Source: Albula goreensis
Taxonomy: Eukaryota; Chordata; Actinopteri; Albuliformes; Albulidae
Length of the DNA: 64,000 bases
NCBI GenBank assembly: GCA_022829145.1
Contig: CM040748.1
Coordinates: 3,673,501-3,737,500 of the forward strand
Direction of reading: 5' to 3'
Positions 17,861-45,702 of the stretch are shown one piece after another. Position numbers and translations under genes: made by a program. The notes under the pieces were generated by a model. That model had not been told where the DNA came from. It searched no databases and worked only from the letters and a program-made list of their open reading frames with translations. Position 1 is the stretch's first letter. The number at the start of each line of letters is the position of its first letter.

Positions 17861-17990
17861 TGCCAGGCTTCCCGTACCCAGCCGCGACCGCGGCAGCATA
17901 CAGAGGGGCGCATTTGAGAGGAAGAGGGCGCACGGTCTACAACACGTTTCGGGCGGCGGCCCCTCCCCCGCCCATACCTGCCTATGGAGG
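17861..17990 (+). CDS. rbfox1: rbfox1 exon, 130 nt, Ala/Arg/Pro-rich C-terminal region
   Basis: The acceptor ttttctgtag (17851-17860) and donor gtgagt (17991) bound 2+126+2 coding bases. The reading starts [15 protein letters not shown], continues with the Arg-rich [14 protein letters not shown], and ends [14 protein letters not shown] across the junction. This is the start of the Fox-1 C-terminal domain, which mediates interactions with splicing partners. '[20 protein letters not shown]' fits RBFOX1 and differs from RBFOX2 and RBFOX3. The exon is one codon shorter than the mammalian 133-nt exon (one Ala fewer in the Ala run). It sits in a CpG-rich block that continues about 300 bp into the next intron. 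Confidence 0.96.
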
Positions 17991-20102: not shown

Positions 20103-20118
20103 TGCATGTCGACATGCA
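20103..20118. promoter_or_regulatory. perfect palindrome containing TGCATG, candidate RBFOX site 74 nt upstream of the 40-nt exon
   Basis: tgcatgtcgacatgca is a perfect 16-bp palindrome. The RNA would contain UGCAUG, the RBFOX binding hexamer, inside a potential hairpin. RBFOX sites upstream of an exon are usually associated with skipping, so this could let the protein repress its own brain-type exon. The palindrome and distance are seen in the sequence; the function is inferred. Confidence 0.55.
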
Positions 20119-20191: not shown

Positions 20192-20231
20192 CGTGGTGTA
20201 CCAGGATGGATTTTATGGTGCAGATATTTAT
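20192..20231 (+). CDS. rbfox1: rbfox1 40-nt exon (brain-type 'B40')
   Basis: The exon has one base (C) completing a Gly codon, then 13 codons reading VVYQDGFYGADIY, with acceptor cttcacag and donor gtaagt. Length and peptide equal the neuronal B40 exon of mammalian RBFOX1. In mammals that exon is spliced mutually exclusively with a 43-nt muscle exon (VVYQEPVYGNKLLQ). It ends on a codon boundary, so the next exon continues GGYAAYRY. Nearby control signals are the (TG)n tract ending 11 nt before the acceptor and the TGCATG palindrome 74 nt upstream. I did not find a 43-nt partner, which suggests either that this fish gene lacks it or that it has diverged beyond my recognition. Confidence 0.95.
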
Positions 20232-23089: not shown

Positions 23090-23690
23090 CGGCACAAGGA
23101 CAAGCGTGTTCTTTCTGGAACGTTTTTATTTCCGCACACATGAATGGCAGCCGGTGAGGTCTCAGAACTTCATCAATACAGCCCCGTGCCGTCAGGCCGC
23201 CATCAATCACAGGTTCTGTGGGGAGAGACCGCTGGCCGGATCATCACCCTTAGACCTTTCCATCGATTGCTCGATTGTGCACAACAATGAGCTATATCGC
23301 AACAATAATTCTGCGGATCCACGCAGCGCTTGCGAATGTCCATCACGCTGGTCTGAGCTGCACTTTGATTCATTGGCGAGGCGCTGCGGACGCCCCTCTT
23401 GTTTATTTGTCGTGTAAGGTAAAAACAGAAGGGGCTGCGGCAGAGGAGGGGGACCGTGCGGCAGTTTCTCCCCGGCTGAACATGCTGATGCAGCCTGCGG
23501 TTTGTTTCCAGGCGTTTCTCATGCATCGCGAAACAGGCAGCGCGAACACAATCACGAAGATGAAGCACGATTATGTCTCGGTTTCGGTGCGGTATCGTTA
23601 CTCGCGGTGTCTCTTTGATGGACTGCGCTTTGCTTTGTCTTGTAAGATTAGACGCCGTTTGCTGTGAACACCCCAGACAGCTGACCCCTA
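23090..23690. promoter_or_regulatory. intronic CpG-rich block, candidate enhancer or alternative promoter
   Basis: I counted about 37 CpG in 23161-23640, whereas neighbouring intron DNA has only a few per kilobase. Within it is a run of AT-core motifs, including two 'tcgattg' words and SOX-like ACAAT words at 23264-23310. Open frames exist on both strands across it, as expected of GC-rich DNA, and none resembles a known protein. It could be an unmethylated regulatory island, an internal promoter for a short 3' transcript, or the body of an old GC-rich insertion. Confidence 0.45.
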
Positions 23691-24576
23691 GCTGAGCATC
23701 CACAGAGCGCTCACTCCAACACAACCTCTCTCTGGTTCCTTTGAATGGCAGGACATTTTGGGTCTATGTTTTATGCTTTTCCTGTCTCAATTTTTACACC
23801 AAATGACTCAACACATTCATCCGCCTCGTTGATATCGCCTCTGACTAATGAGGTCACCCTGCTTTCACACATCGGTCACCCACACTTGTCATGGTCAGTC
23901 ATGAGCATCCAGTTGCCATCCATAATATTTATAATTACTATTATTTACTACATTTTTGTCAGCAATCGCGTATATATTTATAGCTTCATTTCATTCTCAG
24001 TATATAGCGTTCATTCGTCTAAACAGACCTCTGATGCTTGTCATGCCACAGACCTCTTATTAATCAGAAGATCTTCACATTATATAGAATATAGAATAAT
24101 GATATCACACCCATGATAGACTATAATTGACTGATTTCCTAATGCGTTTTCCTAATATGAAAAAAATGTTTTTTTGGTATACAAGTTGCAGTGATATATA
24201 AACATACAAATATACACCATACCTTCATACATACTCTGTATGAGTATTTGATTTATTTTAAAAGGCATGGAAGCACACATTTTACTATTAAACAGCAGCA
24301 CTACTCAGGGAGGCTGTGAAGTATATGCAGGTATCTGCTCCTGCTCCTTACAGCTCCACTCATTTTCCTCCTTGGAACAGGAGGTTAACTAATTAGTGAA
24401 ATCAGCCGGAGAGCTGTATGGCTGGAGCAAGCACCTGTACGCCCTCCAGTCCTCAGTACCTGGAGCCGAGTAGCCCTGCTCTAACGTATTGATTTATGCA
24501 TTAGTCATAGTACAATTGATGTGTTTTATGTGAAGAATTCTGAATGCAGATATGTTCACAATGAGCCTGGCTGACT

Positions 24577-24583
<7 letters not shown>

Positions 24584-24610
<27 letters not shown>
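24584..24610 (+). repeat. (TG)n tract against the 3' splice site of the 65-nt exon
   Basis: The pure TG run ends 21 nt before the acceptor AG and is followed by further T/G-rich text (ctgtgcgcgttgtgttttcag). Confidence 0.95.
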
Positions 24611-24631
24611 CTGTGCGCGTTGTGTTTTCAG

Positions 24632-24696
24632 GGTGGTTATGCTGCCTACAGATACGCACAACCTGCCACCGCCACTGCCGCTGCCTACAGTGACAG
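24632..24696 (+). CDS. rbfox1: rbfox1 exon, 65 nt, GGYAAYRYAQP segment
   Basis: The exon begins on a codon boundary after ttttcag and ends before gtaagg. It reads GGYAAYRYAQPATATAAAYSD plus two bases (AG). This is the Tyr/Ala-rich part of the Fox-1 C-terminal domain, which is implicated in self-association of the splicing-regulator complex. Mammalian RBFOX1 has TPATAAA where this has ATATAAA. The two leftover bases make the next residue depend on splicing. AG+T gives Ser when the 76-nt exon follows directly, and AG+A gives Arg when the 53-nt cassette exon is included. Confidence 0.96.
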
Positions 24697-25410
24697 GTAA
24701 GGCGCTATATCACGCCACGCCGCGCCGTCTACACGCAGGGTCAGACACACAGCCCACGTTTTACTCCAGAGCACATGACCTCAAAGAGCTCCGGCTCCCT
24801 CCAGTCCAGCTTCACTCTTCCCCAAGACTTGTCTCGTACTCGTCTGCAGCTATTTCTCTCGGGTCAATTGCCTTTTCCATTCCCAACGAGCATCTAACAC
24901 GGAAGGCCAAGCTGATTTATTATAATAATTCCCTTTTCCAATTTGGACAGAGCCTATCATGATACACAGAGCTGTAATTGGCAAATGAGATCAATTGAGA
25001 TGTCACCGTAAATGTAATTGCTGAATGTGAGGTGGAGGAGTAGCGCAGCGACTGTAGCTGGCTAATTAAGTGGGATAGACTTGACAGTTCTATAAATAAA
25101 GACGCGAGAGTGTTTGGCAGGACAAAAGGGGGGAAAGTACATTCTGCAGAATGATTTGGCTTATTTACTGTCCCCATTACGTTACTGGAAGTGGTACTTA
25201 CCCAACACTCGCCCACTACTCACTGTGCAACTATTATACATCAATATCTAAATACAATATAGGTTTTGCTTATGGGCAGCCTTTTAAATTGAACTTGTAA
25301 TAATTTTTGTGTTGTTTAAATGGTGTCAATGTCATCACTTTGGAGGAGTGGTTCGAACACGCATATACACTTGTGTATGAGGGGCCAGCACTGCTGTAAG
25401 TCAGATAAGC

Positions 25411-26328
25411 CTTGCATGCAGGAGTTTGCAGCCAATGAAATCTCAGGGTTTGATACAATCTTGCATGGAAGAAAAGCCAGCCAATCTCGGGAATTTCTCA
25501 ACCTATTACATCACTTCCTATCCTGCATCCAAAAAAAAAACATAAATAAATAAAAAATTTGGTACAGCCAATGAATGAGAGTGTGACTCTTGTCGCTGCA
25601 GTGACTGGGCACTGGGCCGGACAGGGGTAAATTCCCCACTGAAATTGTTACTGATACCTGCACCACAGCTTGAGGTTTCCTGTCTCAAACTGTTGCATTG
25701 TGCAGTTATGTATCTGTTACAACCAAACAGCAAAGAACGTTAATGTTAAAACTAGTACAAGGAAACAATAAACGTGATAGTACAAATGATTCAAGATAGT
25801 TATATGACTACCGTCATGTGACTGTGTTCCGAACTTAGTTAATTTAATGAAAAGGATGAGGTTGAAGATCTTGGAACGATCACATTGAAATGATTCATTT
25901 ACTCTGAGCTGTTATGATCTGTTTATTTAAGACCATGTGACCGGAAAAGGTTGCAGCTTTAGTTGAATATGACTGGAAGTCTGAAGATTGGTTGCGCTGC
26001 TCAGACAGCGGCTCACAGACCTCGGACAGCCTGCAGATTGGCTTGCATGCAAGATTTAAAAAGGCCTGAAAAGTAGTTTCCACGTTGCATGTGAGGGCAA
26101 ATGTCCCGCTGGTTGGTTCTCATCTTGCATGGACAGCTGCTGTTTTTTCAAAAATCTTTGTTTGTTTGCAAGATTAGGAAGCCTGTAAAAATGGCTACAT
26201 TTGGTTTTGATTTATTTTTCCCCCCTCGTTCTTTTTTATTTTACTGTCCCTTGCATGCAAGACTGTAGTAGATCCTTGGATTTCATTGGCTGTAATCTTG
26301 CATGCCACATAAATATCTTGCATGCAAG
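25411..26328. promoter_or_regulatory. cluster of eight TTGCATG sites (RBFOX motif), several as CTTGCATGCAAG palindromes
   Basis: Sites start at 25411 (cttgcatgcagg), 25460 (cttgcatgg), 26042 (cttgcatgcaag), 26084 (gttgcatg), 26124 (cttgcatgg), 26250 (cttgcatgcaag), 26297 (cttgcatgcc) and 26317 (cttgcatgcaag). A 7-mer is expected about once per 16 kb per strand, so eight in 0.9 kb is strongly non-random. Transcribed RNA would carry eight UUGCAUG motifs, the preferred site of the protein this gene encodes. Inverted words cagccaatgaaatc (about 25429) and gatttcattggctg (about 26278) flank the cluster, so it may have arrived as, or grown from, a repeat element. Confidence 0.6.
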
Positions 26329-26718
26329 TTTTTGAGGAATTATGGCGGTGTTAGCAAAACAGCTGTTTATGATCCACCTAATATACATGCAGATGTGTTC
26401 TGTATCTGTCATCATGGGATATGTAGTCACAGCAACTACCTGAAAAACATGAATTTTCTTAAAAATAGAGGCACATTATTCACTTAAGCTACACCGTGGT
26501 TAAAAGTACACTTTGAAATCTCAACTATATTCTAATATAAAAGAAATATGTACTTTTTTATTTTCATTTTAATCATGAATTATTCTTCTGTAATATTTGC
26601 CATAACATCACTATCTGTTTCTAAAATTGTGATTCCAAAAATACTGCTGTGTAGGAAGTGACAGATAATGTGCTTTTATTATTTTGGTTTATACATATTG
26701 TAATGGTTGTTGTAATGT

Positions 26719-26746
26719 TTTTGTTTTTTTTTTTTTTTTTTTTTTT
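26719..26746. repeat. poly-T run
   Basis: Long T homopolymer with one G near its start, followed by TG-rich text. Confidence 0.9.
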
Positions 26747-29700
26747 CTGTGTGTGTGAGTGTTTGTATTTCTGGTGAGATTTTACACGTGCTTCAGTTTA
26801 CTTAGATGTACTTTAATGTTGTTCTTGTTTAAAGAAAGCAGAATTGGTGGTATTCGGCAGAGAGCTCACAATATGCTTGGCAAATGTTTTGGTTCCTTGT
26901 AAGGACGAGCTGTAGTGTTTGCTCAGCTGATCCGTGACGTAATGCGCTTTGGTAGCATGTTAGGGGACGTTCAAAAGTTCACAGTAACGATCAGCAACAG
27001 GGATAATTTCAAGCACTTATCCAACACATCCAGCAAATTTCCTATTTTTATCGTGAAATAGACTTCAAACACGAGCACAATCAACTTGGAAAGAGTTCAG
27101 ATCATAGCATTGGTGCCCCTCTCTGTTTATTTAGCTTAATTATGATTGATTGCTTAATTATCGACATTATATAGTCCCAACTGATGTAATAATTCTATAT
27201 TAATAATTCAAAAATGTGTTGATAATATTATACCACTTATTCAAAACCACAGTCAATTTTATTAGAAACTATTGCACTTTAATTATATGATGATCAGGTA
27301 AGTGTGAGCAATTTCGTAGCCATGTTGATTGCAGGTTTGGTCTTTACAGGCGTTAGATTTTTCCTTTGGGTTAGCACTATTCTCCCTGTGAGAGTTTCAG
27401 ACTGACAGGTTGGCAAACCTGTTGTTGACAGTTGATTTTAGATGGAAAATACCAGTGTGGATATTTGGTTGTTTTGAGATTATGTTGCAAATAACAATTA
27501 TGTTGTACATTTAAGACTTTATTAGGTCAGGAATGAATGTGATACAGTCACTTAAAACACACCCATGGTGCTGAAAGAAATTATAACCTAAGTCAGACTA
27601 CAGGAATTCATGATCCATGGCGAAGAAGTTAACTATTTAAAACATTGACAGGAATCTGAGTTCATGTAATACTAGGATAATAACCCCTGTAGAACATCAT
27701 GTGGCAATATAATTACATTGACCCTTTAAACTATTCATGTATTGATTATTGGATTAGCATGTGGTGTTAAAGGTTTAGAACATTCTCGTAAGCTTCCTCA
27801 TTGAGTGTGCAGTCATTAGAAGTCAGTGTGTAATAATTAGGTTGCTACATATCTCTGAGCAAATTTGGTGAGGGATACATATCTTATTGATAATTATCAT
27901 TTTCTGCTCTTATGAATTTTACCTTGCACTTGAAAGTAAAAAAGCAAGGCTTGAAGAATTAATAAAATATAAATAATGATATTATGGATAAACAATAATA
28001 ATAAACACAGACTGCATAAGCCCAGAGCTCCATATTGTCTTGCATAAAGATTATAATGGTATGGTAATGAGGGTGTGCATGTATTAGCATGTATTTAGTT
28101 TATGAAGAAGCATTTTCATCTGTACCAAGGCAACAGATATGATCCTCGATATTCTAATAAGAAAACTGGCCTTGTTTAAAAAGAAACATGATTTAAGTCA
28201 CAGATCACAGTTGTGAGGATGAAAACTGCTCCAGAACATGGGAGGAAGCGATGGCCTCGTGATGGCCATGTTTCACACATTCTGATATGCAGTCCAACAA
28301 GAAGTCAGATGTTATTAATACCAACCTTTATTTTTTATGCATGAGGGTTGCAGAGGTGGTTTCCATAGTCAGCTAGTTCATGGGGAAATTGCTATCATGC
28401 ACATTATATTAAGCCATATTTTAATTACTAATTAACAGAAAAATCAGATGTGATATTTCTATTATGAGGGAGGATGACTAGGATGAGAATAGAGATAGGA
28501 GGAAGGATCATAAAACAGTAAAAGGTATTCATAGTAATGTGCAATCTTATCTCTTAAACACAGCATTACAAAATCATCATGCAGGGAATCATGAGAAAGT
28601 TTGAGGAACTGAAATGAAAAACACTAGTTTAGATAAATGGGAACAAGACAAGGCAGAATCTTGGAAAAACCCAGTCTGTACTTTATATTTTGCTTTGTCA
28701 TTTGATTTATAAAACATTCTGTAACAGCCGGGAATATTCAGTAACAGTTAAATCAATGATACAAACTCAATTATACTTGGTATGTAAGTATAGTTAAATT
28801 ACACTAGTGTAGTACAGACTGAATATGTATGAGTTTCCAAAAAGAGAGCCATTTTGCTGGATGACATGATGTGATGTTGGGCAATTGCTATATAAATTAT
28901 ACTGTATGTATTTCAATGCACTGTAACTCCCACCACCAGTTATGTCTTACTGTAGGTCAAACTGCACCTCGTCCACATACAGATATACTGTAACACTGCT
29001 GATCCTTCCATTTTGCTGTTAAAATGACAACAGAGGGATGAATTTTACAGGGATAATAGTCTCAAAACAATGACCATTTTTAAATGTATTATAATAGTCA
29101 ACGCTGCCTTTGATGAATTATTGCAAGATAATATGTTCTGTGCGCTTAGACAACCATTTAATAACCATAGGTTGTCAGGACTGTGACACTCCTGTATAAT
29201 GTATTAAATCTTGTTGTGATAAGTTATTAATTCCTGTTAGAGTTCTCTAATTAACTGTCTTTTAAGACAATATTTGATGATCACACAGAGACAGATCACC
29301 AGAATTGAATATTTTTGCATACATCTATACATGAGTATATACATAACACTGACATGCATTGATTTAATGCACACATTAGACACAGTCCACTCCGTTTTTA
29401 TATCCTCATTTTAAAGTAATGGTATGCATTAACACTGAGGTATGTGTCTCTGCAAAGTGTGCTTACACGATCTTGGTGTGTTAATGAAGCGCATGCTTAC
29501 GCTTTTCTGGAAATCAGATGGTCAGAAGTGTGCATTGAAATCTATCAGTCCTGTGTGAGATGGGTAGCATTGAGTCTGTGAGCATTCCACAGTAGTGTTA
29601 TGGTCCCGCAGAGATTTTTTTTTTATTTTAAAAGAATCAGTTGGGAATCCGCATGCACTCTCTACGATGCATGGGTTACTGTGTGCACATAGCCCTTTTT

Positions 29701-30203
29701 CTTTTCATAGTTTGCGCTGTAAAGATGCATGTTTTGCATTAAACAGTCATCTGTTACGTTCCGTAGATGTGTTATCAGGAGGGGACGGCTGTGTCCCATC
29801 TCAAGACTGCATACAGAACCAGTGCATATTCTGTGAATATAAGTCACAAGAGAAACACAGGCTTAACCATATGTACTGTGCATAATTGTCTTATTATTTT
29901 GATCATTTCGTTTTGTTTTGTTTTGTTTTGTTATGATTTCCTCCATGTCATCGAAGCCCCAGCATGTCTGTGCCCCATAGTTCCTTTTGGCCTCCTTGCG
30001 TGTGGGGCTTGGTTAAAAAAAAAGTTCAGACCCCCTTTTGCTCGTGAGTTGAAACCATTTTACGCCAGCACCTTTCCTCCTCCCAACCCAACAGCCCCCC
30101 ACCCATACACCCCCCCCTCCCATCTTCAGACATCCACTCAATTCGGCAGGCAGCACATTGCCCAGTCAGCAAGCGGTATTGTGAATTTTATCTTCTCTTG
30201 CAG

Positions 30204-30256
30204 AAATCAATTCGTCTTCGTTGCAGCAGATGAAATTTCTTGTAACACCTCTTCAG
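30204..30256 (+). CDS. rbfox1: rbfox1 53-nt cassette exon (nuclear/cytoplasmic switch)
   Basis: The exon lies between tcttctcttgcag (ending 30203) and gtaaaa (30257). It is 1+51+1 nt and reads (R)NQFVFVAADEISCNTSS plus G. The peptide and the exact 53-nt length match the mammalian alternative exon known as exon 19 in RBFOX1 work. Skipping it leaves the nuclear form ending RFAPY. Including it shifts the frame and gives a cytoplasmic form that has lost that C-terminus. Here inclusion makes the downstream 76-nt exon read [10 protein letters not shown]…TALVP and then stop. A C-rich tract lies 80-140 nt upstream. GCATG sites at 30507, 30511 and 30588 lie 250-335 nt downstream, consistent with autoregulation. 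Confidence 0.93.
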
Positions 30257-30506
30257 GTAAAAAAAATAAATAAATAAATGAATCACTGACACTTTCTTGA
30301 TGCATCCAAGAGGGAGCCGGCATATCCTTATCTTCTTTTTTCCTGTTTTTTTTTTCTTTTTTTTTTTTTTTTGGTGATTAATGCACCCTGGCAGTATGGG
30401 TTTTTATGGCCCAGCTGTAGACAGCTGTGTTATTATTTCCGGCCCTTAAAAACGAAATGTTAATTTTTTCATGTTTCTTTTCTTCAACAAAGTGAAGCTG
30501 TTTGGA

Positions 30507-30592
30507 GCATGCATGGATTTTACCTAGCAGCCAGTGAATTCATCTATTCATATGTTTCTCTTCTCATCCTCCCTTCAGCTTTAAGGAGCATG
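30507..30592 (+). promoter_or_regulatory. GCATG/TGCATG sites downstream of the 53-nt cassette exon
   Basis: GCATG at 30507-30511 overlaps TGCATG at 30510-30515 (agcatgcatgg), and a further GCATG is at 30588-30592. Downstream RBFOX sites usually promote exon inclusion. Placement 250-335 nt past the donor is within the range seen for RBFOX-regulated exons. Confidence 0.5.
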
Positions 30593-33352
30593 TGTTCTTG
30601 AAAGAGAGATTGAAAGAAAGACAGAAAACAGGCACAAGCTAGGAACAATAGACTTGTGTCATATTGCCTTAAACTTATTTTATTATTATTTCTCATCTTC
30701 AGTTTGTTATAAACAGCTTAGGGTGGATGATATGTTTTGTTTCCGTTTGCTTTCCTTAAGGAAAACTGTCAGGTTGAGTTCCTCGTCTCTTTTGAGTTTG
30801 TTTGAAAGATGTTTGTTTAATCTAAGATGCCTGCATTCTGGAGGTGAGCTCCAATTCACCAGTTCACTAGAGACCTAGTTTTCAATGTGGCTTAGAAAAA
30901 ATATACCTACACCACTCCATTCATTCATTCATTCATTGTGTTAGACTTAAAGGAATGTAAATGATTCTGCAAATCATTTCGACTGTAGGTAAAGCTGTAC
31001 ATGCACACTGGATGAAATAATTGCAGAATGTGTCTTTCTTAAATACGTTTTGTACATTGTTAAGAAAAATTAAGAAAATTGAAATGTGTAATCTTTGAAA
31101 ATATCAATCAGTTATCAAAGCTATTTTCTCTTACCAGTCAGTCTGTATCCAGACTGACCTCACATGGTTGCACCAGCCAGCCTTTTGAGATGCAATATAT
31201 TATAACAAACACGTAGAGAGCTACCTAGTACAGTGTTTGCCATGCATTATTCTGCAGGTGTCCCTGTATCCTCGTATCCCTGCTTTATAAACAGAATCCG
31301 TACACACATTTTGCATTGTAGTTTTTGAAGTTGGGAACTGTGTGTGAAAGAGTGATACTGATTTTCACCGAGCAACTTAATCCTCAGAAGCCTTATTTTT
31401 TCTTCGATAGCCATATATTGCAAAAGTAAATTAGGTTGTTCTTCTCTGAAGATACTTTGGGGGCAAGAGGCCAACCCCAAGGGTTCTGCCATTTCTACAG
31501 CAGTTTTTGTATTAAAGTACCATTGATCCCCCGAGTGTTAGGACAGCTGAACCCAGAGTATCAGGCTCTAGATCGATCTCCTGGACACCTGCAAGATGTG
31601 TGCAAATGCCAGGAGGGCATGCAAAGGGCAGCATCCGTAAGGGGCCAATGGACGTGCCAGACTAACAGGGAGTTAAAAATGGATGGTGGCGAATGCCACC
31701 TCAATGCCATTAACATCTTTGTAAGTGAGTTGAAAAGGTTTAAGCATTTCCATTTTTTGCTGGATTTTGGATCGAGAAAAAAAAAAAAAAAACAAGTGAG
31801 GACTCAAATGAGGATGTAGCTAAACGTAAAGACAATCCTCATGCAGTTTCAGTTTGATATTGATCTCTGCAAAAAATGTCTACTCCTTTAATGCAAGGTA
31901 ATGCAGCCTTACAATCGTGTTTGACAGAACCAAAATTACTGATGGCGAATATCATAATGTACTTTTTTTTTTGCGAATATTTTTTTATTAATTTTCCACG
32001 AAAGGATGAACCAACAACAAAATGACACTACGCAGAACAGTAATTACGTAGAAATTTTAAAGGAAGGAATATACGATAATGTACTTTTGATGCTCAACAA
32101 GGCAATAAAAACACGTCTCATCGAGGCAGTTTAAATGTTTCTCATTTAATTTTACCTATCGAGGGTGAGAGCAAACAAACAAAAATAACAAAGAATTACT
32201 TGTTTAGTATTTTTTGTTCAAATCTTTATTCTCATTCTGACTCTACATCTGATGGTATGGATGATTAAGTACATTTGTTCTGCAGAATTATATCTCAATC
32301 TGAGCATTATGTCCTCAATTTGTTCTCATTTTGAAATTTCCCTTTGTATGATTTGGGATTAAACGTATACCAATACAGTTCCTCAGTCATTACTGGATGC
32401 TGAAAGAATATGGTGGAAATCGACATGTTTATTTGTTCCAGTTTTGCTTCTGTTGCAAAATAGTGATTTTACACAAGCCAGATATAAAAGACAATTTCAA
32501 TCCATATCCCCAGTCTGCAAGTTATATGTTAATGAATTGACCGCTTTTGCTGTGCTTTGTATTCTTTGCATATATATAATCAAAAGGGCTGATTGAACAG
32601 CATTTTTTCAGAAAGGTGTATATTTGCTATTTGAAATTCATGACATTTTGATTAAAAATGAAAAGAATATATATTTGCCCTGTGTTTCACTATGCATAAC
32701 CTTGGAGTCACCTGCTCAAGATTTGTGACAGTGCTGTTTACCAATTCAGAGTTTGATCTCTGAATAGACTTAATACAAACTAATTAAAACTGGCCCTGTA
32801 AACACAGATAACACAGGTCAAACAGAGAAGACTGGGCTGGGCAGTGAAATATGTAGACAGACAGTCTCTACAGTGAATAACAATGCCCACCCTAATCTGC
32901 CATGGATTAGCTTCTTAATCACATGAAGCGAGTAAATATGTAAATTAGATAATTGACAGGCAGCGTTCTGCTTTCTGATTGGCTCTTATCTGCCCCGAAC
33001 CCCATGCAGGTTCTGTCAGGCCCAGAGGAGCAGATAACCCAGGTTATTTTATCACATGACCTTATGGGACCAGCATCCTCCCTGTCAGCCATACGTTTAA
33101 AGGAGCTTGGAAGTTTTGCTTCAGCTCTGCAACCTGCGGGATAATTGAGGGCAGCACCTGCAGAACTCCATCGGAAGGAATTCCCCCAGAAAGGATTAAT
33201 GATAGGGAGCGCTTTCCCAGAATGCATTATGGAAGGGTTTTGTTTGTTGTTTTTGGTTTCCTCTGACAGCGACTCCTTTCATCGCAGCTTCAAAATGCTA
33301 TGGATGCATGTTTTATTTGAAAAATTATTATTTTACTTTAACTATACTTTAG

Positions 33353-33382
33353 GTGTGTATGTGTGTGTCTGTGTGTGTGTGT
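33353..33382. repeat. (TG)n microsatellite
   Basis: TG repeats with 'tatg' and 'tctg' interruptions. Confidence 0.92.
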
Positions 33383-35887
33383 CATACATGTAAAAATATT
33401 GACATGGTCATGGGGTTTCTATCACTCTTCCATCCTACTCCCCTTCGAACTGGACCATGCCCCAACACCCAACCAGCCTATTGCAGTTTGCTTGCATACA
33501 AATGCACAGCCCGCCATATGAACACCAGTCTCAATTTTGGGTTGTACAACCACCGTTTGGATATCATGCCTTTTGTCCTCAGTAGACCTCAATGGTACTA
33601 AATATCCCATAGATTCCCTACAACTGAGAGTATATGCATACACATTCTTGAAAAGCCGTTACTTTATATTGCTGAATATGAAACAGTTGCATTACTTCTA
33701 ATTGTCATTCATTATCGATGACATGTCCTCTGCATTACCCTACACAAGTGAGGTGCCCTTGTATATGTTGGATAATGGATGACAGAAATAGTTCCCCACG
33801 GCTCAGATTCAGTTTCATTAGATCTGTGATCATGAATTAGCCTTGCTCCATCCCTGCCGGTATCCCTTTTATTCAAGCAGTCGCATCCTCTTCATCTGAC
33901 AGAGAATACAGTTATAGCCCTCTCCTCGCTCTGTTCACCATTATCATTCTGACAGCTTGCCTAACTTGTGCTAACAGTTTTAGGTCATTTCACATGACCA
34001 GTCAAATGTGACAGCGTGACAAGGCTAAGTTCAGTCAGCGGCTGGTTTGCCAAATTGTAAATACGGAGCGACTGGAATTCTTCTGATTAGGCCGAGGAAT
34101 GATGCATAATCTTCGCTAATCACCATTCCTTTGGGAATCTGTGACAATCGGATCACCAGAATGCCTTGAACAGAACAAAGTGTTTGGTTTTAGAAAGCCG
34201 GATGTCTCAGTCACTGATCCAGGGACAGGCACAGACCTCCTGCTTTATTATAACCTCTGGGTCAGATGAGGTTAAATGCATTTATGAATTAATTATCTAA
34301 TTAACAAACTAATTAATACATCAGGAAACTGGTATTCTAATATACCACCATTTTAACAGTGAATAAAACAAAAACTATGTTTGAAAACTCATATTGTAAA
34401 TGTGAATACGTCAAATGTAGGTGCTTAAATGATTGTAGAATATAAGCAATTTAAATACACTGTTTATAGCAATGTGTGAGGCCAGATTTCCAAGTACAGG
34501 GTAGTGTCACATTTGTTTCTACAAACTCTAAAGCTCAACATCGTAAGTAGGGCATTTTTTTTTCTCCCCATTTTCACTTTTTTTATGCAGTCACAATTTT
34601 CATTTTGTTCGAGATTGTCATTTGGTTCTTGCAGTAATGAAATTCAGTGCTTGACTTTCATAACTGTTGCAAATACATGATATGCTTGAGTAATACAAAA
34701 TAAATATAAAATATTACTGCTGGTAAAATATGAAGGCAATCCTATCCAGAAGTTTTTCTCTTTTCTTACTCTTAGTATTTTATGCACTCCTGGTAGGAAT
34801 TATGGGATAGTTTTTCATGTAGAATATTACTTTTATTTAAATGAATAAAACATACTGTTTGATTTAAATGCATAGCAGTTATTGTATTCAGTATTACACA
34901 GTGATCTATGTTTGTATATTTTTGACCGAATGTAAATCCAGCGCTTAAGATGAATATAATATTGAATAAAATTAAGTGGATATTGGACTTTTAGTTTTGT
35001 ATTTCCTGCTTTTTTAAAATGGCACCTAATGTCTATATTTAGTGAAAAATCGGCTATGCATTTTTGTGACTGCGGCCAAAAGCTGAACAATAAACAACCA
35101 ATCTTTAATTATTAGTCAAACCTGAATTCATGAATGACAGCTGTCAATTTTTCAATGGATTTCTGTCTTAAACGTGTCAGATGCCTTATCAGCCAATAGT
35201 AATGTTGGGAGATGCTCCCCTTGTTTCAGTCTGTTGAACTGAAACTTCCTGTCTTTACAGAGCAAGGCAGAATATGCGATATCATTATCTCACCAAAATG
35301 TAATAAATGTTATTTGCATTATGGTTGTCTGGGGTACACTGTCATTTTAGAACTACAAAGCACAGCCTTGTTTGTGTAACTTTATCTCCATTTTGGTTTC
35401 TGATCTCTCTTTTTTGGATTTCTTAGTGTGTTTCCAGCTGCAGGATAACGTTGTGTAGTATCAATGTGTATCTCTTTGAAAGAAACATATTCTTTCTTCT
35501 TTGATTCCTATTGTTATATTCATAGATAGTGTTGGATGCGTTTGCAGAGGAACCAGAATCAAGGGTTATTTTTATATAAGTCGCTCAATACTGATGATAA
35601 AATCATAATTATGAAGCTGAATTTATATCTACCTCTCTCTCACATTCACACACACCTTCTTATGGATGTGAATTGATGAGCAGTCTTGTTTTAATAGATT
35701 GGCATAATCCATTCTCATCCATTATTAGCAAAGTAAATGTTATTGAATGTAGAGGTGATCAATGTTAGTCATGCGGACTGTCCCGATATATGTTTATACA
35801 CACAACGACATCCAAGCGGAATCCTTGGTCGCATCCTAAACTAGTCATCTTCCTTAAAACAGTAAAACATGGATTTAGTGCTTATCA

Positions 35888-36301
35888 TAAGAACATAAAA
35901 AGAACATAAGAATATATTATGATGAGGACATGCCATTCGGCCCAACAAAGCTTGCCATTACAATTAAAGAGTATCCAACACTGCATCAGGTCTGGACTTG
36001 AACACAGCAAGGGTCTCTGCCTCAACTACATGACCTGGCAACCCATTCCATGTATTGATAACTCTTTGTGTGAAATAATACATCCTTATATCAGTGCGGA
36101 ACTTACTCTTAACTAGTTTCCATTTATGTCCCCTTGTCCTACAGACCGAACCCACCTTAAAAAATGTATTGTAGTTAACCTTGTTGAGTCCCTTTATAAA
36201 TTTAAAAACCTCTATTAAATCACCCCTTAGTCTCCTCTTGCTGAGTCTACATAGGTTAAGTATAGGTTTAGTCTTGCCTTGTAGCTTTTATGTTTCATGC
36301 C
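35888..36301 (-). mobile_element. CR1/L2-like LINE 3' fragment, copy 1
   Basis: The minus strand encodes a degenerate reverse-transcriptase ORF C-terminus (RGHKWKLVKSK…YYFTQRVINTWNGLP…VVEAETLAVFKSR). That pattern ends many CR1/L2-clade LINE ORF2 proteins (F..RV...WN.LP..VV.A...FK.R). The element's 3' end is the repeated cttatgttctt word (its complement is at 35888-35910), typical of these LINEs. It is 5'-truncated and has no intact ORF, so it is dead. It inserted antisense to rbfox1. The same family recurs at 53942-54350. Confidence 0.85.
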
Positions 36302-36829
36302 ATGATATTGATTTAGTGTTTTCTCCAGATGCATACTGTATTAATACTTCCTATCAGTGATTTTTCTAGTCATTGAGTCAGATACAATGTCACCCACATC
36401 CTTGCTGGCTGGTTAATATTTAGCTAGCAGAGTACATTGTTATATTCAGTGTCTGTACATAGTCCCATATTATCTTATGCAAAATTATGTTTAATAAGTA
36501 GTCTAATTAAACAATTATATCCCTAGAGCAGTAAAAGGGATTCTGTAGTATTGGAATTAGCTTGCTCTAATCTTGGCAGAATTATCAGGGCTTCTGGTCT
36601 GAATGTCATTTTTCTGGCATCACATTTTTTTGCTTGCCTTGTGATTGACATACAGTATAATATTGCTTCCAGGACCTGGAAAAAAAAAACAGCAACACTG
36701 CCAGCTCCAGAAGTCTTTTTATTTGGGGGTTCTGATGTGTGTCAACACTATCTGAGTTGTTTACGCCATTTCTGAAGGTAGCATCCAAATTGTTACTGCT
36801 CTGGTGTCAACTTATCATCAGTTTATCAG

Positions 36830-37370
36830 GTATGATACATGAACATGCAGGTAACAACCGCTAACGAAACCACACATCCGAACGAGGTAAACGCTCTAGT
36901 GGTGATGCAAGACAATACAATGGAACACATAAAGATCAGCAAAGCAGGGGTTCTGTAGAACAAGAGGGGTGGCTGAGAGACTGTCCCCCCAATAACCGAC
37001 AAAAGAAAAGGTGTGGAAAATCCAGCACAGGCAAGCTCACACGTGTTAAATGCTTCCCGAAGGTTTTTGCGAATCTCTTCTCCAGATCGTACTTCCCTCC
37101 TCTCCACACGCATGCTCGACTGGATTCAGGCCTGGTGGCTCTGGGGAAGTCTCTGCCGGGAGCTGCATTCATGTTCCCAAACACATTTCTGGATGATTCT
37201 AGCCATGTGGCATGGAGCAATCTCCTGCCAAGGGGTTCACCTGATGGGCAACGATGTTCAGATATCCCATGGTGCACCAGCATAGCTGCACTCAAGGGAA
37301 TGTATGAAGGGAACCTTATACTGATGTGGTTTTCACACTTTAAGGCTGACACGTCATTCACGTGTGGTTA
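36830..37370. other. unassigned, relatively GC-rich intronic block
   Basis: Composition differs from the flanking intron. Long open frames run on both strands (up to 141 codons on the minus strand). No domain, splice-site pair or terminal repeat is recognisable. It may be an old transposon fragment. I do not call it a gene. Confidence 0.3.
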
Positions 37371-40300
37371 AGTTGGCTGTTTCTTCAGTTTCGGCTGTTT
37401 CTGGTAAGAGTTAGCATGGTCAAAGAGGAGACCACAGTAACTGCATTGGATGAATTGAATTTTTTTTTTTTTTTACAGTTGTACAGGTGTTATAAAACTG
37501 CTTCTTTTACCTAGAAGGATAATGCAAGACAACATGACAAGAAAGGAGCAACATAATTTTTAGGGGCCTTAGAAGACAGAAGAGCATCCTTGAAAAAGCA
37601 TGACCTTCAGAGAGTAAACTCCACACCCCCCACACACCGTATCTCAGCCATCAGCATCGATTGATTGACAGCAATGATCAGAATTATTGTCTTCTCAGTC
37701 AGAGTCCCAAGTGGCAGTGAGCCTACAGTCTGAATATCTCTGATTAGATTCTGGGTTGTCATTAGCAGAGCAATGACCTCTGCTGCATGGTGGGACACAG
37801 TTGGTTTAGTCCCAGCTGGGTAGGGGGGGTGTAACTCACATAGTTCTTTGGGCTTCCTCAGAAACAGAACCCACAAGCTGTTTGCCAGATCCCTGGATTA
37901 CCAGTTGCCATCAGTGAGAGATATGTCACTGCTCGGTTCAGAGTTAGTTCATATGTGATACACTGTGTTTTTTTCCACTTAGTAGGGTTTAAAATAACCC
38001 ACAGACAGAGTAATGTAAGACAGCACTCATTTTAGCTCTGTTGTTCCCTGTAGAATAGCGATGATGCAAGAACAAAGCACAGCTGGCAATTACACATGAG
38101 AGAAAAATGGCAAACAAACAAGAAATAAACATGAAATAGAATTAAGTGGTGAGCTTTTTTTTATTATTTTTTTCTATTCTGATAGTAAACACCAGTGTGA
38201 CCTTTGACCACAGCACGGTTTTTGACCAGAACATTTCTGTGAAATGATATCTTCTGAATTGGGCTGGAATGATGTTGATCACAATTGGCATTTGAATATT
38301 TCTTTTATTTTATAAATCTGGCATTTAACATATAAATGTTTGTACATCTGGCAACGGCTAGCATTAGTGTCCAGTGTCCCTTTGTTGTACCCATATGGTC
38401 ACTCAGCACAACCGTTGACTGCAGCTTTAAAATGGGAAAGTTGTTAGCCTGCATGGCATCAGTGCAGTGGGCTAAATTATGTACAAGTCTCTGTCTGAGC
38501 TTCGTGTGGCTTTGAGCTGAGATCTCTCAGTCTATACATGGCCTGTGTAGTATTTTTGGATATCCATGCCATTTATTGTCGACTCTTTTTATTTAGAAAC
38601 TTACCAGTGCAGCCAGTCTCTAAATCACCACTTGAACTGTGTTTCTGAGTAATTATGGGTAATTGTATGTTGCTAGACGGTCCCAACTTGTTTTTCTTGA
38701 GATACAGTTACAAATGTGACCTTATTTTGAAATAAGCGGCTCTATAGCAATCAAACGTTTAACAGTCTCTGGTATATTGGTAAAGTGTGCTACATATAAT
38801 GACTATAATAACAGTGTTTGACAGCAACTTCAGGAATTGTAGAATAAGCACTGCACAACGGGAGATAATAAAATCATATTCATAAAGATAAATCATGTTA
38901 GTTTTCTAAAAGCCTTCTCAGACCTGTGTCTGGTTATACTCACCTCCCTGGCTGAAGGATAAAGGTTTCACAGAGGGCCGGCAGCTTGAGAGATATCACA
39001 CATTCCTAACAGAATTTGGTTGACTTACATAAATGTTGCCATAAGTCATTTTAATAGTTTAACTTTGCATTTAATACCACATGTGATATATAAAAAAGGA
39101 GTATATAAGGAACACATTTGTGGTATAGCTGTGCTTCCCGCAGCTGAGACTCAAACTCCCATAATTCCCCACTGATGATGCAATAATGGGCTCAGCCTCA
39201 GTGGGGTAAATAGCAGGGTAAGCCAGTTAAACTCATCAGACTCATTGCTGTCTGGCAACCCCCACTAGCCGGTCAGTAGCCTGCAGGTTTGTGTTCTTCT
39301 AATGGAATACTAAATCCATAGCAGGTGTGCTTGAGGTGTGAAGGGTTTTGAGCCTCCTGAATACGGGGGTGATTCACAGTGGGGCTAATTATTTAACTCG
39401 GTTTGAATGTGGAAAAATAGAATATCTTTTATGTTTTTACTTTGACTCTAACAAAACTATACTTGTCAGACCTTTTAGATGGATAACTTCTCTGCCACAG
39501 TCTGTACTATGACATGTTTTCATAGGTTTTTGAGTTGGCAGGTTATAATCCCATTCACGTACCCACAAGTACTTTAAGAGCACATAGTTTAGGTTTCTTG
39601 ACACAGTGGTGGAATGGGATGTCTAAATATTTCTACATTTCTGGTTAGCAGTGCGCTGTATGCTAAGTTAAAATCTAGGCTTCTGACAGAAAGAAAAGGT
39701 TGAAATGTGGGTTGCAGTTTATCATATAAGATCACATGAGCCAGCTGAGATTCCTGACATCTGTTTCCCTCATTTAAATTCTTTCATGATGACAGAAGCC
39801 CAGAATCCTGGAAAGTTGTACATTTATGGAGCACGTTAAAGCGTAGCCACTGTTGATTTTGCCATATCTTTGTTGTTTAGTTCTGCAGGTTCTGCTGATG
39901 CGCGTACTCACCCACTGTTTTTTAAATTATATTTTGTTCCATTTGTGGTCACACAAAGAATGCACCCCTTAAAGATGTTTTTTTTTTTTTTCTTTTCCTG
40001 TGCGTTTCAACAATCTCAGGTCACCTTGGAACTCATGCAACGCACAGAGCTTCTCTTAATGAGAACGCAAATTAAGGGGTTATTCCATGCAGGTCGGATT
40101 AAGGCAGTCTATTTCCCATTTATGTATGGCATATAGGTATTCCGCTAATGTTGCAGTGTTTCATTAGGGTGGGGGAAATCGTACTTGCAGAGAATGAACA
40201 ATATTACCCATCTTGCTACTATATAAACATAAATTCTAAAATTACAAATGCATATATATATAACTTGCATAAATCAGCAGCCGAGGTGATATCAGGTGCC

Positions 40301-41668
40301 AGTAATGCCACAGATGATAGGTACAGTAAAAGATTATTTGTGCTTTAAGTGTAATTTCTTTTACATTGTTTTCTTTTTCTCATAAATTTGTTGTTATATA
40401 GTATCACATAATTATTCGCCTTGTGCATATTTGAAAATATAGTTGTAGTTGCTGTGCATATTACAAAAAGTAAGATGAAGAAATGAAGAATCTACAAATC
40501 ACACATGATTGATATTCCAGTGAAATATCATATTCTTATGCTGCATAACGTGGAAATGTTATCGTGTTGATTAAGAAGTTTGATTTGAGAGTTCAGTGAG
40601 TTTAGAGCTGAACTTTCTGCAGCCCTGCTCCAGTGCTGCTGAGAGAAATCGGTTATGTTTTTGAAATAGCTAAGTGTTCACATCTCTACATTTGGGAGTT
40701 AATGTAAATATGTGGCTGTCTTGTGGTTTCCCCAAATGCACCCAGCCCCCATTTACAGACGCATCACCCCCAGTCCTCAGGGAGGGGTGGGGGAAGGTCA
40801 GGGAGCGGGTCCTGGGGTGACTGCTCCGTGAATTCTGCCTTTTCAGGAATCCAGTAATTCAAACACATGATACGAGATTTCAAAATCGTAAAAATATTTT
40901 TTTTTTACCAGGATTCCTTGAATACTTTGGGTATTTCCTATCCTCTGCATGAACACAGCGCTGTAACAGATAACTTTATCTTATCATAATGGCAGTCAAA
41001 GAAAAATGTATTTTAATGTGTGGTGTTTAGCTGAAGGCTCCATTTGTATGTAATGTAGCTGTGTCTGTGAGCAGTGTGATTGGCCCCAAAGACGGTGATG
41101 GGAGGGGCTAGCGTTGCTGATTTGATTGGCGGCAGCATTACTTGGTGCACTTGTTGCTTGTATCAGGGTGAAACCGTTCATTTAATTATAGAGTCACTGA
41201 GACCTGGCAAAGGTACCATTTTTTTTTATTTAATAAACACATGGAGATTTCCTGCTCAAGCAGTTTCAGTGCGGTGACAGTGTGTTGGTCTTCCCGCGTC
41301 TCTGCTCGCAGTTGCATGCTAGCAGCAGCCATGTTCTGTTTCCTTTATTTACTCATCTGATTTGTGTCCTCCCCAGACGCTTCCAGTCGCTGTCAGTTGG
41401 GTCATCAAATTTCTTTGGTATTTGCAGTAGTATGATATGCTGTGGTTGATGATTTGGTTGTTTTTCGTTTATTATTATTTATTTTATTTTATTTATATTT
41501 TGGCATTTGCATTGCAGTATTAAGGAAATAATGTCTGTGTTTTGTTGTTGTTGCTGTTGTTATTGTTGTTGTGAGGTGTTGTTTTTTTGTTTAGTTTTTT
41601 TTTTTTTTCACGTGCGATGGTGAGGAGGTAGCTGAGCGTGGGATTCTGTGTCTCTTTCCTCTCCGCAG

Positions 41669-41744
41669 TTACGGACGAGTTTATGCTGCCGACCCCTACC
41701 ACCACACACTTGCTCCAGCAGCCACCTACAGCGTTGGTGCCGTG
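41669..41744 (+). CDS. rbfox1: rbfox1 exon, 76 nt, readable in two frames
   Basis: The acceptor is ctctccgcag and the donor gtaagg (41745). After direct splicing from the 65-nt exon it reads [20 protein letters not shown] then SVGAV, ending on a codon boundary. If the 53-nt exon is included, the same bases are read one frame later as [20 protein letters not shown] then TALVP, with TG left over. Joined to the terminal exon's A this makes TGA. Both frames are fully open across the exon and both match known vertebrate RBFOX1 isoforms, so nearly every base is under double coding constraint. TGCATG sites follow at 41776, 41841 and 41977. Confidence 0.95.
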
Positions 41745-42799
41745 GTAAGGAAAACCCCTCTTCTCTCTCTCTTCCTGCATGCCTTTCTCATTTTCTTTTA
41801 CTCTTCTTCTTTTTCCTTTCTTCCCATTTTTTTTTGAGTCTGCATGAATTTTATCACAGCTGACGTCTCCTCACTTTAACTTAATTGAATTTGTCTCCCG
41901 TGCTAACGACAGCTAAAATGCCACATTAATCCTTCCCAGTAAACTTGATAAATGTCTTAATTTCTTGCCAATGTAGTGCATGTAAGTTATTATATTTCTA
42001 ATTTTGCGAGTATCACCTAGCTTAGCGCCCTCCTTAATGGAATAATTAGTCATTTTGATAATTAAATCCATCACCGGAATGGTGTGGTGGCAAGTAAAAG
42101 AATAAGAGGGGAGAGAGAAAGAAAGGAAAAAAAATAGAAAGCAGAGAGAAAGAAAGTCTTAGCAATGCACGCGGAAGGTTCTTGAATCCGGTCACTTTAT
42201 TCTGATTATGTTGGATGTGTGGTGCTTGCGAGGAGTTCTGCATCATTGCCCTGAACAGGATGAAGTCTGCCCGACCACCTCATTTCCATAAACGCGCCTC
42301 TTATTGGTTCCTCTGAAAAGTCGGGTGCACTGGCTTGGATCTCAGCATTCATAATATTTTTCAGAAGACGATCTGTATTGTAGAACGTGACATATTCTCT
42401 CTCGCCGTTCCCGCCTGCCTGCAGACTGCGTGGCCGTGGAGCAGGGATCGTTCAGGCAGTCTGTATCTCACATATCCGATCTGGCTGTCTCCACTTACAC
42501 ACAAGTACTGTTAACGTTCAGCTACAAACAAGGGATTCTACCAGAGGAGTATGCTGAGATCCAAATGGCCGAGTTCTTACTTTTCCATTTCATGTATCAG
42601 TTGATTTATTTATTAACGTTTTTCTCGCACGTAGAGTAGTTAAAGCCTGTTGCCCTGGCATGCGGTGTCTTGGTGTGCTTGCTGCATGACAGATCGTGGG
42701 CCGTGTCATCTTGGGTATGTACAGTAGAGTTAGAGAAGCAAATGTGTCGAACGGAACAGAAGTGAATTAAAAACCTGAAAATGCATCGCTTTGTTTCAG
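41745..42799 (+). other. rbfox1: rbfox1 last intron, 1.06 kb
   Basis: The donor is gtaagg and the acceptor ctttgtttcag. The first 240 nt carry three TGCATG sites and a pyrimidine-rich tract (41750-41835). GCATG (42659) and TGCATG (42683) lie 112-141 nt before the terminal exon. No transposon is recognised. Confidence 0.9.
41776..41982 (+). promoter_or_regulatory. three TGCATG sites downstream of the 76-nt exon
   Basis: TGCATG occurs at 41776-41781 (32 nt past the donor), 41841-41846 and 41977-41982. Sites in the first 200-300 nt of the downstream intron are the classic RBFOX splicing-enhancer position, so the encoded protein probably promotes use of this exon. Confidence 0.6.
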
Positions 42800-42922
42800 A
42801 ACACTTTTGCACCCTTGCCTGATTCCAAGACTAGGACCCATGCTGACGATGTCGGTCTCGTTCTTTCTTCATTACAGGCTAGTATATACCGAGGGGGATA
42901 CAGCCGTTTTGCTCCATACTAA
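42800..42922 (+). CDS. rbfox1: rbfox1 terminal coding exon, with internal alternative acceptor
   Basis: From the proximal acceptor (ctttgtttcag, ends 42799) it reads [19 protein letters not shown] then LVLSSLQ, followed by [14 protein letters not shown] and TAA (42920-42922). A second acceptor, tcttcattacag (ends 42877), would remove exactly 78 nt (26 codons) and join GAV directly to ASIYRGG. Both choices exist in mammals. The RFAPY end belongs to the PY-type nuclear localisation signal of RBFOX1. The change of mammalian YNRFAPY to YSRFAPY is conservative. In the other frame (53-nt exon included) the proximal acceptor gives an immediate TGA, while the distal acceptor would extend the protein by [16 protein letters not shown] before TGA at 42924-42926. 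Confidence 0.95.
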
Positions 42923-43382
42923 ATGACAAAAAGCATATAAAAACCTTCCAGTGGGGACAAAAAGAGAAGCTTTCCGAGGCCTGGGTATTGCAATACTTGC
43001 AGTAGTGCATCATTTTAGCATCTCTAAAAAGAGAGGGAAAAAGACATTTTTTTATCTTATACCTCAGATATTTTGTTCTGTGTATTTTAATATTGTGGGT
43101 CATTAATTTCTAAAAGATACATAGATTGTTGGCTGTAGGGGTTTCTGTGGTGATCTAGAAAGCTGCTAGATAAAAATCAAACAAGAAAAAAAAAAAATTA
43201 TTAGGGCCACAATCGAGAGCGCTTTATCATGTAAATTAATTATATATGATAAATATTAAACTGTTTGGGGTTATCACGTTTTGTAAAGGTGTAAGTGACT
43301 ACAATTTTGTTTTCTGCATTTTTACATTGCCTTTGTTTTCAATTTTATGATATTTTTTGGTTTGTTATTGAAAAGGAAAAAG

Positions 43383-43462: not shown

Positions 43463-43818
43463 TTGTTGATCCTGAAAAAAAAAAATTGAGAAAAAAAGAA
43501 AAAAAATCAATACAGTTTAAACGAGAGGGCACCACTGTACTGATTATATTAGCTGTCTTATATCATCCAATACTCAAAGCCAAAGGTTATGTTCCTCGGG
43601 TGTTAGCAGAAACTTGTACATACAGATTTTACGTAGAAGTTGTCTAGTAACACCCAAAAAGATATTCACCAAGGCAGTATTTCACTGTTTAACCATTATC
43701 TAGCAAATACTTACTAGTTTAGGCCATTTAAAAAGTGTTCTTTTTATATTACTTCCAGTATATAAATTATTGATACCATTGCTGACTTTTGTATTATGGG
43801 AGGAAAAAAAATTACATT

Positions 43819-43884
43819 AATAAATAAGGCGATAAAAGCACTGTTTCTATTTTTCTTTTTGTTTTTCAGAAGGAAAGTAATAAA
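43819..43884 (+). promoter_or_regulatory. proximal polyadenylation signals
   Basis: AATAAA at 43819-43824 and at 43879-43884. The T-rich text between them and the modest downstream signal suggest at most a minor, shorter 3' end. Confidence 0.4.
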
Positions 43885-44615
43885 ACTAGAACTGTTTGTA
43901 CCAGTTAAAAAGAAAAAAAAAGAAAAAAACTACAACCATGTATAAAATTTGAGCCGTGCAGTGGAAAAGTTCTGTTATAGAAAATGCGCAAACTATGATG
44001 TTTTAGATTTAGTCTAGTAGACCAACTGTTAGAGAAAGGTGTATCATTTTTATGGATTACATGATAATCATATTCAGATTTATATAAACATTTTACAGGT
44101 ATTGCAATCATTATGTAGAGATAATCATGGTATTTTTGTCGGCTCGGTACTTTTTAGACCTTTCTGTGCTGCACACACAACCTGCAATTTTTCGTCACTT
44201 CTCAGCTTGTGAGACATTACTCATGACAACTCTTTTGCATTTTGTTATAATTATTTTTAATAACACCGTATTCTTTGTATTCCTTTTTTTTAGAACAAGG
44301 TCTTTACATTTTGAAACAGTTTCGGAAATATACACTATACAGAATCTATAACTTGTGAAAAGATATTGATCTATATATATAAATATCTATATATTTATAT
44401 CTATATATAGTAATAGTAAATAATACAAAACAATGTCAAATCAGTCTCTGGAAAGTCAGAAGTGCAACACAAGCAAGCTGTACAGAAGGCTCATTGCTGG
44501 CACCCTGAAGAATTGCAGCTTGTCTGTGCAAACGCCAAGACTCTGTTCATGTTGTCCTGTTTACAAGTAAAACCTAAGTTGAGGTGTTTGTCACAGGTCT
44601 CCTTTTTGTATTTAT

Positions 44616-44621
44616 AATAAA
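44616..44621 (+). promoter_or_regulatory. polyadenylation signal, intermediate
   Basis: AATAAA followed by A-rich, not GT-rich, sequence. Possible alternative 3' end. Confidence 0.4.
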
Positions 44622-44858
44622 AATGTTTGAAAAAGAAGACAAAAAAAAAAAAAACAAAGCAGCTTCAAGCTGTCTCGCTGCAAATCTTAGTTATATCCTC
44701 ATGTGTACTGTGAGCGTCTCACGACACAGCTCCGTAAAATATCCTACCCACCGCTGTGACTCTACTATAAAATTCTGCTTTAAAAGTGTTGTGACCAGGC
44801 GTTCTCCTTGTCATCGTATGTATGTGCATGCAGTATGATCCGCAGAACAATAACCATC

Positions 44859-44864
44859 AATAAA
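44859..44864 (+). promoter_or_regulatory. rbfox1: polyadenylation signal, probably the main distal one
   Basis: AATAAA in 'catcaataaagtttcacaag', followed 20-40 nt later by a GT/T-rich element (ttgttctggtctattttttt). This is the best hexamer/downstream-element pair after the stop codon. Confidence 0.65.
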
Positions 44865-45702
44865 GTTTCACAAGATAAGGGGACATTGTTCTGGTCTATT
44901 TTTTTATTTAATGGGTTACAAAGTAGCTACTGTTTATGTCTGTACGAGGTGATGGAAAGTTCTCACCTTTTTTCACAGGAGGTATGTCACTCTTTTAAAT
45001 ACTGCAGTATTATTTTTATCTGCAAAAAAAAGCTGAGTGGAAATATAGATGATAAGAACACCAATAAGCTGGTTGCCAGTATTCACCATATGGGCTTGCA
45101 CAGAATACATTTTACAGAATACATTTTACCTTATATAAGTTTGTTTTTTTCATTTACATTAAATGCAAAACCACACAGATGAATGCATGACCTATCCCCC
45201 ATAAAGTCTTCATTAATTACTTTCAAAAAAAAAACAACAACTCTGGTTCCATTTCACATCGTACATTTGTATACGAATCCAATATATAGCCATGATTAAC
45301 ACATATTTGGTAAAAAACTATAAATTACAGTATCAGAAATCTCCTGACTTAACCAATATGTTGCATGAGAAAACCGTGGGATGTGTAGCATCTTTGAGAG
45401 AAAAGTGCTGTCTTCACTGTAACGGGGAGTGATATATGCCAGTGCCATAGGCTGTAGCACTGTGGACTTATAGGGCAGTGAGTCAGGATGCTGTTTGAAT
45501 GTTTTCGAGCTGCAGAACAGACAGCCGCCACCAGCCCTGGCTGCCAGTTTAACCTGCCTGCCATTTCCTGATTCGGCAATAGAAGGAAAGATAATGTTAA
45601 GACACAAGAGACGGGGTGTGTCCCGGTACTTGCGAAAATGCACCCTCTTTCCCAAAGGAACAATGGAGGGAGGGAGAGTGGGGAGAGGAGGAGGTAGTGA
45701 CA

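Follow-up and report, generated by a model that had tools for sequence, protein, structure and literature searches.

A probable fish RBFOX1 gene and its in-genome duplicate carry the frame-shifting exon of the mammalian nuclear/cytoplasmic switch

Can a fish gene, by a single splice choice, rewrite the C-terminus of an RBFOX1 protein and remove its nuclear import signal? This question is raised by a 53-nt cassette exon and a downstream 76-nt exon in the 64,000-nucleotide stretch analysed here (the window; positions 3673501–3737500 of contig C8 in a genome of 932 Mb). The switch itself is an already known mechanism from mammals: RBFOX1 forms with a FAPY end are mainly nuclear and those with a TALVP end mainly cytoplasmic (PMC3126832), A53 inclusion shifts the frame with loss of the FAPY signal, as B40 skipping likewise does (PMC7214753), and mouse exon 19 provides the same nuclear/cytoplasmic switch (PMC6042722). 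The fish 53-nt exon has the corresponding sequence properties, being a frame-shifting cassette with the same neighbours and with TALVP and FAPY as the alternative ends, and the best explanation, which we hold with high confidence, is that this fish locus is orthologous to the A53 switch of mammalian RBFOX1. The likeness to mammalian A53 (mouse exon 19) thus covers the frame-shifting exon, the cytoplasmic TALVP end, the nuclear FAPY end and the loss of the signal; the fish gene differs in being present as two copies in the genome, and the localization of its products is a prediction.

Exons were called from splice borders together with matches to a working version of the human RBFOX1 protein, from which the fish copy differs at a few residues and by which we assigned what we take to be the exons neighbouring the cassette. 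On these grounds the window is assigned to a fish RBFOX1 gene, of which it carries the C-terminal part in plus-strand orientation. Its exons, all on that strand, are a 54-nt exon encoding 18 residues (58–111; human match and splice borders), a 130-nt exon encoding 44 residues (17861–17990) that lies inside the Fox-1_C match, the 40-nt alternative exon B40 (20192–20231), the 65-nt exon preceding the cassette (24632–24696; AG/GT borders), the 53-nt cassette exon (30204–30256; tcttctcttgcag before, gtaaaa after), the 76-nt exon (41669–41744; AG/GT borders) and a last coding exon with TAA at 42920–42922 and two acceptors 78 nt apart, which give it the extents 42800–42922 and 42878–42922. The borders of the 53-nt exon confirm what the first-pass annotation had described as an intact exon with good splice sites. 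Joined segments of both isoforms matched Pfam Fox-1_C (153.1 and 151.7 bits; cut-off 25), and three exons matching the RNA recognition motif (RRM) lie directly upstream of the window on C8. Rfam gave no matches at gathering scores, and a search of solved structures gave none for the skipped form and three at E 0.5–0.9 for the included form, which were taken as chance.

Joined translations bear out the predicted frame switch. With the 53-nt exon included, the 76-nt exon is read in its second open frame and the protein ends in TALVP; with the 53-nt exon skipped, it ends in RFAPY with either last-exon acceptor. The stop of the TALVP frame had been placed in a TG|A codon straddling the final junction, and this stands with acceptor 42800 but fails with 42878, a second acceptor that the first-pass annotation had missed and that constitutes the main correction to an otherwise supported interpretation: with 42878 the TG|A stop is not formed and the frame extends 16 residues further. 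In the skipped form, 42878 yields a short FAPY end of 14 residues and 42800 a long one of 40, with 26 extra residues ahead of the nuclear signal. B40 skipping alone also reaches the TALVP end by frame shift, via GVVMLPTDTHNLPPPLPLPTVT. Taking the wording of the PY-signal pattern from PMC3126832, we found R/H/K-x(2-5)-PY at the C-terminus of the skipped form (RFAPY) and nowhere in either included form from the 65-nt exon onward, in agreement with the claimed loss of a C-terminal nuclear signal on inclusion; the skipped forms additionally contain RVYAADPY, an internal stretch that fits the pattern loosely. As for the pattern's upstream half, phi-G/A/S-phi-phi-x(11-13)-PY (with A, P and C counted as hydrophobic), it was found at the C-terminus with 42878 only and not with 42800, and the nuclear signal of the long form may be weaker for this reason. 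The choice between 42800 and 42878 decides whether this upstream half adjoins the C-terminal PY.

By analogy with the mammalian work, skipping of the 53-nt exon would produce, through the RFAPY frame and its PY-type import signal, a nuclear splicing regulator. Its inclusion would cause the 76-nt exon to be read in the shifted frame for 25 residues, with a stop codon spanning the last junction, and the resulting protein, lacking the import signal, would be mainly cytoplasmic. Nonsense-mediated decay of this form would not be expected, since no junction lies 3′ of the TG|A stop. Such a switch can be overridden, given that mouse RBFOX1 forms beginning with exon 1A remain nuclear even when they contain A53 (PMC7214753).

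The 53-nt exon and its flanks occur at a single other place in the genome, C22:2866308–2866403, with 93% identity. The gene there has the same exons around the 53-nt exon and introns that align with those of the window copy in short islands only, which points to an old duplication. This duplicate retains the 53-nt exon, the 76-nt exon, both acceptor AGs, the TALVP and FAPY ends and the TG|A stop. Intact borders in both copies rule out a relic 53-nt exon. It is also improbable that the exon is present in fish DNA but hardly used, with essentially only the nuclear form being made, because in both copies its splice borders are intact and its frame is open, and because conservation between them extends into its introns (aligned block 30151–30279, 89% identity). 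The block over the 76-nt exon (41667–41746) ends at the exon borders. Inclusion of the 53-nt exon combined with acceptor 42878 might give a third functional tail, as the frame is open in the window copy and terminates 47 bases into the last exon in its short version; we consider this very improbable, for the duplicate frame misses that stop and continues into a different, longer tail, and a third tail was rejected as a conserved product on that account. With the A53-type switch as the preferred reading, the RBFOX1 nuclear/cytoplasmic choice is placed in a fish gene that exists in two copies, most of whose intron sequence has diverged, and fish thereby become a usable system in which to test it.

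Is the 76-nt exon constrained in both of its frames? The window copy and the duplicate differ in it at four bases. The change at 41717 is synonymous in the nuclear frame; in the TALVP frame it replaces Q with R. Those at 41724 (T to A) and 41742 (V to M) alter the nuclear frame and leave the TALVP residues unchanged, and that at 41726 falls on the third base of the nuclear codon already changed at 41724 and replaces P with H in the TALVP frame; each frame thus has two changed residues. Third positions differ at 2/25 in the 76-nt exon versus 67/194 in the other exons (one-sided Fisher p = 0.004), where the control consists of the other exons in the standard frame with the three RRM exons added and the 53-nt exon excluded. 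With the control restricted to the window, where 50 of 135 third positions differ, the one-sided Fisher p was 0.0025, and fourfold sites gave 1/15 versus 43/95 elsewhere (p = 0.003). When the most divergent control exon (17861–17990) was left out, p was 0.017 for third positions and 0.013 for fourfold sites. A neutral rate of synonymous change in this exon, which had been named beforehand as the observation that would tell against dual coding, was not seen against the in-genome duplicate, for this one gene pair. Low third-position change is not proof of two frames, since the 53-nt exon, which has a single reading frame, likewise changes little at these positions (2/17; p = 0.03 versus 50/135), and constraint acting on the RNA could account for part of the effect. 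Constraint on both frames nevertheless appears supported, from one gene pair and four changes, in line with the dual-coding exon first proposed.

The low count in the single-frame 53-nt exon also fits another account, which we judge unlikely, in which conservation of the 76-nt exon acts on its RNA, as splicing enhancers or other RNA signals, and the TALVP frame owes its openness to chance or history. We recoded the 76-nt exon with synonymous nuclear-frame codons, generating 100,000 recodings for each of three codon weightings (uniform, the exon's own third-base mix and a GC3 of 0.7), and the second frame was open in 50%, 54% and 68% of recodings respectively. Since so many recodings are open, and since the exon itself has no stop in any of its three forward frames, an open second frame is little evidence of coding and agrees with RNA-level conservation. 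What it reads is another matter: the TALVP end arose in 0.14%, 0.59% and 0.14% of recodings under the same weightings and so exceeds chance, and TALVP with the TG|A stop is found in both copies and equals the published mammalian end, which argues against an RNA-level origin. The first-pass claim of a match to mammalian isoforms accordingly holds for the FAPY and TALVP ends as they appear in PMC3126832 and PMC7214753, and beyond those ends against the working human sequence. With that sequence the TALVP-frame peptide agrees at 23 of 24 residues, the best recodings reaching 17, 20 and 18 under the three weightings.

The sister RBFOX genes bear on both sides of the same issue. The 76-nt exon peptide is encoded at six genome places (E up to 10), and around the four places other than the window copy and the duplicate we read 27–29 kb each. 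In these four paralog regions the best match to the 53-nt exon peptide had an E of 0.59 and none lay between the flanking exons, the intron corresponding to its site spanning ~0.2–2.2 kb. All four keep the nuclear frame of the 76-nt exon, and their second frame is open as well, despite the lack of a detected 53-nt exon, as RNA-level conservation would allow. Yet these exons share the nuclear-frame role and none ends in TALVP: the second frame has a different reading, which in one paralog ends in TALVL and in the other three is unlike TALVP. Moreover, two of the copies, which we take to be RBFOX3-like, differ from each other at 12/27 third positions in this exon, which also speaks against RNA-level conservation. 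The 76-nt exon is thus a compact natural case for gauging selection on two frames simultaneously, the four sister genes without a detected 53-nt exon serving as built-in controls. A further RBFOX-like place, matched by its RRM, lies on C22 near 0.35 Mb.

Related systems resemble the fish gene in part. Loss of the fish B40 exon shifts the C-terminal frame and reaches TALVP; a frame shift at the C-terminus also follows skipping of the 40-nt exon B40 in RBFOX1 (PMC7214753) and in rat Rbfox2 (PMC5577181). The two fish copies, however, are not alike in how their 65-nt exon reads once B40 is skipped. In RBFOX3, alternative 3′ splice sites of the last exon set the C-terminus and the location of the protein (PMC3126832), but acceptor choice there adds or removes 14 residues containing the signal, whereas in the fish RBFOX1 either acceptor leads to FAPY as long as the 53-nt exon is left out. 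B40 and M43 are the brain and muscle exons of RBFOX1 (alternatives of 40 and 43 nt; PMC9153194). A search with a putative M43 peptide found no M43 in the window or in five paralog regions; the gap of interest for it in the window is 20231–24632. Zebrafish has two genes, rbfox1, with the brain as its main site of expression and the heart as another, and rbfox1l, expressed in skeletal and cardiac muscle (PMC10876957); FAPY does not occur in another paper on zebrafish rbfox1 (PMC4541041). Among open-licence literature listings we noticed no paper on two-frame selection in the 76-nt exon or on a fish A53 exon.

The intron preceding the 53-nt exon contains six TGCATG motifs within ~280 bases (26044–26324, plus strand), for which a regulatory role is suggested by the RBFOX binding motif, (U)GCAUG (PMC3126832). 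At the corresponding position the duplicate also has six TGCATG, of which five occupy the same alignment columns and the sixth is two bases off, in surroundings that otherwise align poorly between the copies. Among 200 first-order Markov simulations, none had more than four TGCATG in a cluster-sized window, compared with the six observed; in the real sequence, however, three of the 180 hexamers composed of the same letters reach seven in such a window, so that clustering alone is weak evidence. The whole window contains 46 TGCATG, where simulations gave 33.6 on average (s.d. 5.8). Two further sites are common to both copies, one at 20103, at the start of an aligned block ahead of B40, and one at 41977, in a 217-base intronic block 3′ of the 76-nt exon (41859–42075, plus strand) that is 88% identical to the duplicate. 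Self-regulation by RBFOX through TGCATG sites would be a guess from these positions. Tentatively, and with more doubt than belief, we put forward a fuller scheme in which both copies keep the two-frame switch with both frames constrained, and RBFOX sets its own A53 choice via the six-site cluster and the TGCATG 3′ of the 76-nt exon, in a feedback loop that would tune nuclear versus cytoplasmic RBFOX1. A paper dealing with clusters of RbFox motifs deep in introns (PMC12435732) contains in its main text neither A53 nor any word that begins with autoregul-.

Other parts of the window also align to the duplicate. Blocks at 43555–44881, 3′ of the stop, have 76–89% identity and point to a long 3′ untranslated region that has been conserved, and non-exon stretches at 1356–1465, 14737–15000, 32722–33058, 55583–55731 and 60876–61044 align at 74–81%.
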